Part shown: positions 4,342-44,633 of the stretch, piece by piece | How the letters are laid out: each line of letters begins with the position of its first letter | How positions within the stretch are numbered: the first letter of the stretch is position 1 | Source of the DNA: an uncultured Planctomycetaceae bacterium | GTDB taxonomy: Bacteria > Planctomycetota > Planctomycetia > Pirellulales > UBA1268 | Direction of reading: 5' to 3' | DNA length: 64,000 nt | NCBI GenBank assembly: GCA_903885565.1 | Contig: CAISJI010000098.1 | Location: 1-64,000, forward strand | Program-made: the position numbers and the translations under genes | The notes under the pieces: generated by a model | What the model was told of the DNA's origin: nothing | Database searches by the model: none | Seen by the model: only the letters and a program-made list of their open reading frames with translations

Positions 4342-4429
4342 CGTAAACCGGCTCCCGGAGGGCAGTCAGAAGAGAGGACGGTAGAAATCGCCTCTCTGGC
4401 CAGTCAAGCCCAAAGATCGGGGGCTCCAG

Positions 4430-4562
4430 CTGGCTGTGGAAAAAGCCATCCATGGCCTCTGGTTTGAATACAGTCCACGAAGTCGACCGGTGAAAAAGCC
4501 GAGGTTTTCCACAGTCGACGGGCATCGCATCCAGCGATGCTGCACTATCCACAGCCTGCCAG
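4430..4562. repeat. Family B multi-hairpin intergenic repeat, copy B1
   Basis: ctggctgtggaaaaagccatccatggcc...gaggttttccacagtcgacgggcatcgcatccagcgatgc...tatccacagcctgccag. Same sequence as copies at 15653 and 44414. Confidence 0.85.
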
Positions 4563-15587: not shown

Positions 15588-15652
15588 CGTGATGGTGATC
15601 CAGCAGATGTCTCCCAGTGCTGCCCTCCTCCACGGCCAAGAGGTTTTGCTGG

Positions 15653-15775
15653 CTGGCTGTGAAAAAAGCCCTCCATGGGCTTTTTCCACGAAGTCGACTG
15701 GTGAAAAAGCCGAGGTTTTCCACAGTCGATGGGCATCGCATCCAGCGCAGCAGAACTTTTTCCACAGCCTGCCAG
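15653..15775. repeat. Family B multi-hairpin intergenic repeat, copy B2
   Basis: ctggctgtgaaaaaagccctccatgggctttttccacgaagtcgactggtgaaaaagccgaggttttccacagtcgatgggcatcgcatccagcg...tccacagcctgccag. Confidence 0.85.
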
Positions 15776-40015: not shown

Positions 40016-41644
40016 ATGGGTCCGATTTGGCCGTACGCTCTCTTCGGGTGTCCGCGGAAAAAGTCATCCCGCTGGCTCAAACCGATTATTGGCGTGTGTC
40101 TACTCCTGGGCCTGCTTGTCCAGTCTGGCGGGAAAGCCTTTGGTCAGGGAGGTAATTTCGACGGCTTCGGCAACCTGATTGATGCCGAGTCGGCTGCTCC
40201 TGTTTCTCCTCCTGCCGCCCCCCTTCCAACGGCTCCCCGCGAACCGGCCGTCGACTTTGGCCCGGTGGAGACCGATCGACTCTCGCTGGCCAATGCGGCG
40301 CCTGTGCTCCTTCCCTTCTTCAATAACGGCCCAGTCTTCGGCCTGCCGGGCACCGTCACTGGCGGCTTCTGGGACCGCACCCAACTCACCGGCGACTGGG
40401 GCGGCCGTCGCACCGATTTGGCCCGCCGCGGAGTGTTTTTTGATGTCTACACCACGAGTGCCTATCAGGATCTGATGTCGGGCGGCCTCGATCCGGGGGA
40501 TTGGTTCGTGCAGAACACGCAGATGTCGATCAACATCGACACCGGCCGGGCCGGCTGGTGGGACGGCGGTCTCATCCACTTCACCACGCAGGCCCGCTAT
40601 GGCGGCACTCCGGAGCAAACGTTCAACTCGGGCGCGAGCGTTCCAACCTACACCGGCCTCCTTGAGCCCGATCCGATCGCTTACTCAACGATGCTGCCGT
40701 CGGAGTATTTTCTGGTGCAGGGCCTCAGCGAGCACACGAGTGTTCTGGTGGGCAAGATCAGCGATATATTCATCCCCGACCAAACGCTCTTCGGCGACAG
40801 TTACAAGTTCTATTTTGCCAACTTCGCCTTCAATAAGAATCCGATCACCACCAATTTCTACAATCCGACCGCCTGGGCCGTGCTGGGCGTGTGGGCCCCG
40901 AGCAAGCGGCTCGCCTTCGCCGGCGGCGTGCTCGATCCCAACAGCCGCTCACAGAATCTCGCCACCAATGCGTTCGATCGGGTGAACCTCTATTTCACCG
41001 CCGTCGCCTCCTACGATATCGGCGGGCTGCCGGGGCAGTTTTCCCCCGCCTTCAACTGGTCGAATCAGTATCAGCTCGATCTCGCCAATCCCTACGGGGC
41101 GCTCAGCCCGGGCCAGATTCCGCAGGCAGTCGGCTATCTCCTCGGCAGCCCCAACTCGGCCGGCCTGCCGATCAACAACTCCACGAGCAGTTGCTTCCTG
41201 ATCGCGAATGCCTCGCAGTATCTCTATGTGGCCGATCGGCCCCAGGATGTGCCAGGAAAACTCAAAAGCGGCCAGCCGCTCCGCGGCGTTGGCGTGTTTG
41301 GCCGTGCCGGCTGGGCCCCGCAGCAGACCAACACAATCACTGGCGACGGCAGCGTCGCCCTTTTTGCCCGTGGGCTCGCCGAATCACGCCCATACGATAG
41401 CGCCGGCGTCGGCTGGTATATGAACGGCATCAGCCCCGATCTGCAAAAACAAGTTCGCACGTATACCGGCGGGGCGCTCAACGTGCAAAACGAACAGGGG
41501 ATGGAAGTGTTTTACGACTACGCCATCACGCCCGCCATTCGCTTGATTCCCAGCTACCAGCACATCTGGAACCCACTCTCGGCCATCGCTGCCGGCCATG
41601 ATTCAGCCGACCTGTGGATGATGCGGGGCACGGTGGTTTTCTGA
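40016..41644 (+). CDS. OprB-like carbohydrate-selective porin
   Basis: Signal segment; LTGDWGGRRTDLARRGVFFDVYTTSAYQ; C-terminal aromatic MMRGTVVF. Confidence 0.8.
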   Translation: MGPIWPYALFGCPRKKSSRWLKPIIGVCLLLGLLVQSGGKAFGQGGNFDGFGNLIDAESAAPVSPPAAPLPTAPREPAVDFGPVETDRLSLANAAPVLLPFFNNGPVFGLPGTVTGGFWDRTQLTGDWGGRRTDLARRGVFFDVYTTSAYQDLMSGGLDPGDWFVQNTQMSINIDTGRAGWWDGGLIHFTTQARYGGTPEQTFNSGASVPTYTGLLEPDPIAYSTMLPSEYFLVQGLSEHTSVLVGKISDIFIPDQTLFGDSYKFYFANFAFNKNPITTNFYNPTAWAVLGVWAPSKRLAFAGGVLDPNSRSQNLATNAFDRVNLYFTAVASYDIGGLPGQFSPAFNWSNQYQLDLANPYGALSPGQIPQAVGYLLGSPNSAGLPINNSTSSCFLIANASQYLYVADRPQDVPGKLKSGQPLRGVGVFGRAGWAPQQTNTITGDGSVALFARGLAESRPYDSAGVGWYMNGISPDLQKQVRTYTGGALNVQNEQGMEVFYDYAITPAIRLIPSYQHIWNPLSAIAAGHDSADLWMMRGTVVF

Positions 41645-41649
41645 ATATA

Positions 41650-41830
41650 CGCGGGCGAAGCCCTCCATGGCCTTCGCCCGCTTGAGTCGGCCGAGGGAAA
41701 CGCCAAGGGTTTCTGTATATACGCAGACAAAGCCCTCCATGGCCTTTGTCTGCTCGAGTCGGCCGAGGGAAACGCGAAGGGTTTCCTTGGCCGACGGGCA
41801 TCGCATCCGGCGATGCTTGGGGTGGGGCCA
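41650..41830. repeat. Family B variant pair: two H1/H2 hairpin units followed by H3 (gggcatcgcatccggcgatgc)
   Basis: gcgggcgaagccctccatggccttcgcccgc and gcagacaaagccctccatggcctttgtctgc, each followed by gagtcggccgagggaaacgc.aagggtttc. Confidence 0.82.
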
Positions 41831-41870
41831 CGAACTGCGTGCGCTCTCCATGCCCGTCGCCCATCGGTTA

Positions 41871-41939
41871 ATGGAGGCGGAGGGGTCGGCGAACGCTCGA
41901 GGAGCGCACGCGACGAGACTTTTGCCGTCCCGCAGCCGA
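41871..41939 (+). repeat. Family A hairpin repeat, copy 6
   Basis: ggaggcggaggggtcggcgaacgctcgaggagcgcacgcgacgagacttttgccgtcccgcagccg; convergent gap 41644/42008. Confidence 0.9.
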
Positions 41940-42007
41940 TGCGCCACGGAAGGCGAATCCGCTCAAGCCGACGGGCATCGCATCAGGCGATACTTGCGGA
42001 GGGGACG

Positions 42008-42394
42008 CTACCAAAACGTCCGGACGGGATAGCGACCGATGATGGCGTCGTCGGTGACGATCACCATGCCGTGGCAATGTGCCTGAGCGATCAGCATTCT
42101 GTCGAACGGATCTCGATGAATCGGCGGCAGCTTATGCACCTGACACGCTTCGGCCTCGCCAATCGGCAGCAGATCAATCCCCGACCGCTGCCGCATCTCG
42201 GGAATATAGCGATCGGGAGCGTCTGGCAACGGAAGTTTTCCCAGGCCGTATTTGACCGTGATCTCCCACGCTGACGCGGCACTCAGCCAGACAGAGTTCT
42301 CCGCCGATAAGAGTTCCTACCGCGCCCTCGACGACAACGCAGGATCGTCGAGCAGCAGCCAGAGAAAAGCATGCGTGTCGAGCAGCAGGTTCAT
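42008..42394 (-). pseudogene. PIN-domain (VapC-like) toxin gene with in-frame amber codon
   Basis: Hand translation from the ATG overlapping the antitoxin stop: MNLLLDTHAFLWLLLDDPALSSRAR*ELLSAENSVWLSAASAWEITVKYGLGKLPLPDAPDRYIPEMRQRSGIDLLPIGEAEACQVHKLPPIHRDPFDRMLIAQAHCHGMVIVTDDAIIGRYPVRTFW. TAG at 42319-42317. Confidence 0.82.
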
Positions 42395-42645
42395 TCACCA
42401 GCCCCGAAGCTGGCGAGCATGTCGTCCGGCAGCGGTTCGCTGAACGAATCAGGCACAACGAATGCGCCCTTGGCCAGGCCAGCGTGACGTTGGCGCTTTT
42501 CCACCGCGGCGGGGCGCAGCCGTCGCACTTCGGCCACCGGTTCGTTGCGGTTGCAGATGATGATTCGATCGTCCCCCTGCAGGTCGGCGATGTGCCGCGA
42601 GAGGTGCGTCTTGGCCTCATGCATGTTCAGCCGAATCGATGCCAT
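42391..42645 (-). CDS. Phd/YefM-like antitoxin
   Basis: MASIRLNMHEAKTHLSRHIADLQGDDRIIICNRNEPVAEVRRL; stop overlaps the PIN start (ATGA). Confidence 0.8.
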   Translation of the reverse strand: MASIRLNMHEAKTHLSRHIADLQGDDRIIICNRNEPVAEVRRLRPAAVEKRQRHAGLAKGAFVVPDSFSEPLPDDMLASFGAGE

Positions 42646-44413: not shown

Positions 44414-44546
44414 GTTAGCAGGCTGTGGACAAAGTGCAGCGTCGCTGGATGCGATGCCCGTCGACCGTGGAAAACCTCGGTTTTTCCACCGGGCGACCGA
44501 GTGGCCTGTCTTCAATCCAGAGGTGCATGGAGAACTTTTTCCACGG
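44414..44546. repeat. Family B multi-hairpin repeat, copy B3 (reverse orientation)
   Basis: ttagcaggctgtggac...gcgtcgctggatgcgatgcccgtcgaccgtggaaaacctcggtttttccac; reverse complement aligns over its length with B1. Confidence 0.82.
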
Positions 44547-44633
44547 GAGGTTAGCATAATAATCGAAAAAAGCTGTGGACACAGTGGTTTGCCGCAGAAT
44601 GCGGCGAGCGGGCACCTGCGGGGGAGGCAATGC

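Follow-up and report, generated by a model that had tools for sequence, protein, structure and literature searches.

Three-Hairpin Blocks of a Miniature Transposon and Their Possible Capture behind Stop Codons in a Planctomycetota Family

Three dispersed hairpins in the genome of a freshwater planctomycete belong to a MITE. Its full copies are 119 bp long, with terminal inverted repeats and a 4-bp YTAR target duplication. On balance, we lean towards the view that this MITE has repeatedly been captured as a sense-strand 3'-UTR hairpin block. The selected molecule would then be the mRNA, and the molecular role may be sought in protection of the mRNA 3' end, in release or in termination. The initial annotation, made from the letters of the 64,000-nucleotide stretch analysed here (the window), had described the hairpins as a structured family; both the MITE, with its terminal inverted repeats and 4-bp duplication, and the stop-codon placement of the old copies had escaped it.

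The Hairpin Unit

Hairpins of type H1 that keep their apex while their stems differ and stay complementary are indeed present in the window, with small corrections of the coordinates. The first, at 41651-41681, reads GCGGGCGAAG-CCCTCCATGGC-CTTCGCCCGC. The second exists as GCAGACAAAG-CCCTCCATGGC-CTTTGTCTGC, but at 41723-41753 and not from 41716 as given earlier; three pairs differ between these two stems, all of them compensated. The H1 reported near 15657 is found as GTGAAAAAAG...CTTTTTCCAC at 15659-15689, with one A.C mismatch in its stem. H2 is complete at 41758-41795 and truncated at 41686-41713. Variants of it do occur, but the second sequence quoted for them is actually GTGGAAAAACCGAGGTTTTCCAC (44.4 kb, minus strand) or GGTGAAAAAGCCGAGGTTTTCCAC (4.5 and 15.7 kb). 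H3, GCATCGC-ATCC(A/G)-GCGATGC, was found as described, at 4522-4540 and 41798-41816.

The three hairpins are parts of one H1-H2-H3 unit of about 95 nt. The window contains five units (4.4, 15.7, 41.65, 41.72 and 44.5 kb) and a solo H3; CCTCCATGG occurs in it five times against 1.4 expected, three of the five inside hairpins. The features are the following.

40016..41644, plus strand: host gene, carbohydrate porin of the OprB family (Pfam PF04966, E 1.7e-24; ORF list; gene caller)
41645..41718, plus strand: unit 1, truncated; H1 41651-41681, H2 41686-41713 cut within the 3' arm, H3 absent (covariance model match 41648-41719)
41719..41820, plus strand: unit 2, complete; H1 41723-41753, H2 41758-41795, H3 41798-41816, right transposon end eroded (covariance model 106 bits, E 3.6e-19; folds)
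41970..41996, plus strand: solo H3-like fragment GACGGGCATCGCATCAGGCGATACTTG (BLAST E 2.2e-7 at 41967-42004)
4426..4562, plus strand: MITE copy 4430-4558 with terminal inverted repeats, target duplication CCAG/CCAG, H1 interrupted (model match 4433-4544)
15649..15775, plus strand: MITE copy 15653-15771, 119 bp, flanks CTGG/CCAG, H1 15659-15689 (model match 15656-15755)
44415..44554, minus strand: MITE copy 44550-44419, target duplication CTAA/CTAA, H1 interrupted (model match 44435-44547)

Units 1 and 2 stand in tandem directly 3' of the porin gene, whose TGA stop (41642-41644) lies 6 nt ahead of H1; their period is 72, and the 72-bp repeats are 88% alike. The complete unit at 41719-41820 folds far below shuffled sequence, as RNA (-58.5 kcal/mol, z -6.3) and as DNA (z -6.4) alike. 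No promoter-like site was found at the 41.6 kb locus and no terminator-like site at 41600-42100, where both a U tract and a canonical terminator are absent; a looser terminator match, whose tail is T-rich, lies at 4432-4457 but does not rise above background. The comparison with Rfam that had been proposed gave no Rfam 15 family at the gathering threshold within the window.

A second dispersed repeat, GGAGGCGGAGGGGTCGGCGAACGCTCG..GGAGCGCA.GCGACGAGACTTTTGCCGTCCCGCAGCCG, is located at 41870-41945 and about 18240 of the window and also at loci L003, L005, L023, L027 and L042; it often adjoins hairpin units, in another genus too. Just downstream of the units, on the minus strand at 42008-42645, a Phd/YefM-like antitoxin (weak Pfam match) is followed by a PIN-domain fragment, and this is probably a type II toxin-antitoxin locus.

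A Miniature Transposon

Matching ends, of the CTGTCCGTGGACAAAG type on the left and the CTTTTTCCACGGRCTG type on the right, are carried by about half of the copies studied. These terminal inverted repeats of about 16 bp are imperfect and enclose the three hairpins; the right end has at least 13 of 16 matches in 113 copies. The element is non-coding, present in many copies and shorter than 600 bp, with a full-copy length of 119 bp in 72 of 109 cases. The flanking 4-mers are identical in 42 of 109 copies, against 14.7 in shuffles, none of 10000 shuffles reaching so high a value, and CTAG, CTAA, TTAG, CCAG and CTAT are frequent among the duplicated targets. Deletion derivatives exist, down to the two ends alone. 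Two mini-derivatives of about 43 bp, L255 (G000:C230:59627) and L267 (G000:C209:26890), consist of only the two MITE ends.

Searches by terminal repeat and for IS701-type transposases found no autonomous partner with the same ends in this draft genome (279 contigs), nor did the loci read contain one. Terminal-repeat matches outside the model matches, where read, are deleted, solo or decayed derivatives, and between one pair of ends spanning 862 bp (L171) lies a gene for an integral membrane protein, judged MarC-like by eye, and no transposase. An IS701-type transposase was ruled out as mobiliser, the DDE_5 domain being absent from this genome. Mobilisation of the RAYT/REP kind is unsupported as well: the sole Y1_Tnp gene of the genome is surrounded by different repeats, and Y1_Tnp is absent from four relatives (G019, G029, G034 and G021), each rich in unit copies. 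At L101 (G000:C247:15535-15873), a Y1 (RAYT-like) transposase gene is bracketed by a repeat of its own, ATGGGGACGGGAGC, that has no relation to the hairpins.

Distribution

With the locus as query, BLAST matched 50 places in its own genome, and a covariance model built from 45 diverse copies found at least 149 copies of the three-hairpin unit there. All copy totals are lower bounds; nor are the counts fully independent, since BLAST and exact patterns seeded part of the sample and a few of the eroded copies are mutually orthologous. The model has matches in 34 of 36 genomes of the same Planctomycetota family, spanning all 12 sampled genera, and in none of the 23 genomes that represent the order's other families. 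When 199 genomes were drawn more widely from the class, the matches came from three members of the family and, outside it, were limited to one degenerate homologue. This single homologue (L269, G107:C21:39228-39321), in another family of the class, lies shortly after a TGA and looks real on reading.

When species representatives were scanned for the exact pattern, the matching records were MAGs titled as planctomycetes, with several from lakes and a few under the title Candidatus Kuenenia. Four loci (L054, L056, L076 and L085) come from genomes titled Candidatus Kuenenia stuttgartiensis that carry the family's element at the same gene as in family members; these labels look wrong. Viral contigs contained no copy by exact pattern, and carriage by phages was dropped from consideration.

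Intact and Eroded Copies

The copies were classed by the state of their transposon ends, with genes called by a codon-usage script. When both ends are intact (99 first copies), the upstream gene runs in the same direction as the copy in 53 cases and in the opposite direction in 44; contact with a stop codon involves a co-directional gene in 15 copies and a convergent gene in 13. When both ends are eroded (30 copies), the upstream gene is co-directional in 28 and opposite in 1, and 22 of the 30 abut a stop codon. Among the sorted copies, no corresponding eroded class with the reverse orientation was found. Of the 63 first copies whose right end is eroded, 44 have a stop codon 6-9 nt before the H1 anchor, and in the own genome the upstream gene of such copies is co-directional in 21 of 21; the strand of the upstream gene differs between eroded and intact right ends with a Fisher p of 1.8e-6. 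Of the right end itself, eroded copies retain a faint remnant (7.2 of 16 matches, against a background of 6.3).

The structure has fared differently from the ends. In 36 eroded copies that abut a stop codon, 96.9% of the stem cells are paired and 30 of 34 pairs covary. Pairwise identity in this set falls from 0.86 at apex positions to 0.61 in the outer stems and to 0.30 in the tail, whereas 101 intact copies show hardly any difference between apices (0.81) and outer stems (0.80). In view of the sense bias, the paired stems and the eroded ends of this class, the hairpins outlast the transposon mainly in one orientation, as selection at the level of the transcript predicts. A CTGA target is present at 23 of 44 eroded stop-abutting copies, and its asymmetry could lie behind part of the orientation bias. 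Creation of the stop codons by the insertions was ruled out, because the distances to the stop share one preferred value and do not spread over three frames.

Persistence and Turnover

At orthologous places, pairing is kept and the stems have changed. Next to one and the same tRNA gene, copies from two genera (L014 in G033, L018 in G027) differ by seven double and two single changes, and two copies behind the same gene end (L016 and L100) by 13 double changes and no single one, the flanks in sister copies being about 90-94% alike. In a further orthologous pair (L079/L069), the changes are mostly single. The tRNA-associated block (L014:425-616, L018:1491-1587) is antisense to the tRNA gene and separated from its 5' end by about 11 nt, with compensated stems in the two genera. 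These long-lived copies have no co-directional stop ahead of them and fall outside the stop-codon rule.

The positions themselves turn over. Behind dksA the block is present in 2 of 30 genomes read, and the place is empty in three species of the same genus as one genome, G025; behind gcvH it is present in 1 of 30. Recent insertion exactly at stop codons is seen, sister species having empty sites. Since the position of the block is not fixed across the family, its gain is recurrent and lineage-specific. At L024:4950 (G000) and L277:2647 (G007), two genera have a block after the stop of apparently the same gene end, with differing H1 stems; the gene in G000 encodes the formaldehyde-activating enzyme, and the unit in G007 is without H2.

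Covariation: RNA or DNA?

Paired stem changes around conserved apices, which the initial annotation had proposed, stand far above two controls. In 45 aligned sequences, 94.5% of the stem cells are paired and both partners vary in 27 of 34 pairs; the alignment reaches a covariation score of 0.398, compared with 0.136 for shuffled alignments and 0.04-0.11 when the 3' partners are slid. The apices are near-invariant (AAGCC-N-TCCAT-GGCCTT, AACGCCRAGGGTT and CGC-ATCCN-GCG). The further claim, that selection acts on the structure, is supported for copies without transposon ends. Selection at the RNA level, however, is not proven by covariation alone, because G-T cells are not favoured over A-C cells and because one orthologous pair combines 13 double changes with no single one. 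Among 6838 stem cells, 87 are G-T (1.3%) and 135 are A-C (2.0%); in the eroded stop-abutting copies the numbers are 15 and 16. By contrast, the stems of 20 tRNAs from the same loci, assigned crudely, have 20 G-T (8.5%) and 4 A-C cells (1.7%). A preference for the G-U wobble over the A-C mismatch is therefore absent from the hairpin stems and present in the tRNA stems.

RNA under selection normally tolerates G-U pairs. It follows that either pairing is renewed at the DNA level, most simply by template switching between the arms, or a perfect duplex is required. Given the contrast with tRNAs of the same genomes, much of the covariation was probably generated by template switching in DNA. Both the lack of wobble and the pair with 13 double changes fit correction of palindromes by this process, which produces such paired changes (PMC8794818). 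As a footprint of template switching, inversion of the loop was sought and practically never found: none of 157 scanned H1 apices is inverted. One inverted H1 apex (AAGGTCATGGACGACTT) was seen by eye, at L118:1639, and is a possible footprint of template switching or inversion. The kept orientation of the apex and the biased orientation relative to the host gene are left unexplained by a purely mutational account. Because of these two features, both views are combined here: template switching would be a source of the paired changes, and selection would retain the block in sense 3' UTRs.

Host Genes

The hosts include several beta-barrel proteins, but also Fae, DksA, NusG, SOD and topoisomerase VI; a link to outer-membrane genes was dropped, as they belong to no single functional class. 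A co-directional downstream gene is always at least 42 nt away from the block, while 31% of co-directional gaps in general are below 60 nt. These wide gaps place the block at the ends of transcription units, although a neutral insertion would hardly be tolerated elsewhere.

Proposed Explanation and Alternatives

The MITE inserts at 4-bp YTAR targets and duplicates them. In a genome of 64% GC, a YTAR site that tolerates insertion would often be the stop codon itself (C|TAG or C|TAA), so that a copy can land exactly after a gene, harmlessly. Copies in sense orientation behind the stop codon would then be retained, serving the host mRNA as a hairpin block in its 3' UTR: transposon ends and linkers would drift to randomness, but all three apices would be preserved and the stems would stay paired. 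The likeliest site of action would be the message end, where three stable hairpins, starting about 6-7 nt past the stop, may guard the 3' end against exonucleases and/or aid the ending of transcription or the release of the ribosome, in the manner argued for REP/BIME elements. Many of the paired changes would probably be supplied by template switching between hairpin arms.

A bolder form of this explanation can be put forward tentatively. The block might be a family-wide, recurrently recruited, transposon-supplied 3'-UTR module, its three hairpins, with their fixed apices, following the stop codon at about 6-7 nt in tens of genes per genome that have nothing in common (porins, Fae, DksA, SOD, GcvH) and acting on translation termination or the mRNA end, possibly via a dedicated protein that reads the apices.

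The main alternative, which we consider rather unlikely but deserving of weight, is a purely selfish MITE without host function, its location set by the target site and by the purging of harmful insertions, its paired changes due to template switching and copy replacement. Double changes almost without one-sided intermediates or wobble agree with it, being a known product of template switching (PMC8794818), as does the fast positional turnover; an asymmetric target like CTGA would by itself give orientation. On the other hand, the apices exceed the stems in conservation solely in the eroded, non-mobile copies, these copies have no mirror class in the other orientation, and the orientation of the loop is kept in all 157 H1 apices scanned, the inverted one at L118:1639 having been noticed by eye.

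Action of the hairpins as single-stranded DNA in transposition, of the REP/RAYT or IS200/IS605 type, is improbable. Here, a Y1 transposase would recognise the hairpins and place them, always in one orientation, on the 3' side of a CTRR-like target; such a mechanism would account for the contact with stop codons, the target immediately before the left end, the single orientation of the eroded copies and the missing wobble; yet target duplications flank both ends, full copies occur in both orientations, the only Y1 transposase of the genome has another repeat, and the four relatives named above are without any. Most improbable of all is an independently transcribed, trans-acting small RNA whose loops NTCCAT and ATCC are aimed at other messages: the loop sequences are conserved as it would require, but the 41.6 kb locus has no promoter-like site, no Rfam family was found, eroded copies begin about 6-7 nt after host stop codons and the wobble signature is missing.

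The preferred reading, capture as a 3'-UTR block, arranges the copies in a series from mobile to eroded, sense-only and structure-preserving, which makes exaptation of a MITE as a 3'-UTR element testable copy by copy. Furthermore, the family holds a caution for RNA discovery. Covariation in 27 of 34 pairs would be impressive in any screen, yet G-U pairs are few, which points to correction of palindromes in DNA as a contributor.

Comparison with Known Systems

BOX, RUP and SPRITE of Streptococcus pneumoniae are bacterial MITEs, and terminator or riboswitch roles have been proposed for such elements (PMC10969869). Like these, the present family is short, non-coding, dispersed between genes and able to form stable hairpins, with terminal inverted repeats and a short target duplication. 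It differs from them in having three separate hairpins whose apices are conserved while the stems covary, in the retention of eroded copies only in sense directly after stop codons, and in its restriction to one planctomycete family.

REP and BIME elements are palindromes tagged by GTAG and CGTC, with proposed roles in transcription termination and mRNA stabilisation (PMC3733652). They too are dispersed intergenic palindromes beside gene ends, sometimes arrayed, but they measure 20-40 bp, whereas the present unit has three hairpins in about 95-119 bp, no GTAG or CGTC head that was noted and no link to a RAYT gene, and it does have terminal repeats and target duplications. Integron attC sites were set aside; copies of the unit are dispersed singly or in short near-identical tandems.

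IS5- or IS701-type transposons duplicate a YTAR target, and the 4-bp YTAR-like duplication is shared by the MITE; in its case, however, no transposase with matching ends was found, and DDE_5 (IS701-type) is missing from the genome. Finally, hairpins maintained by template switching have been described for RNA genes by Monttinen and Loytynoja in 2022 (PMC8794818). Multi-base compensatory changes without one-sided intermediates are common to both cases, but here they occur in a dispersed transposon family.
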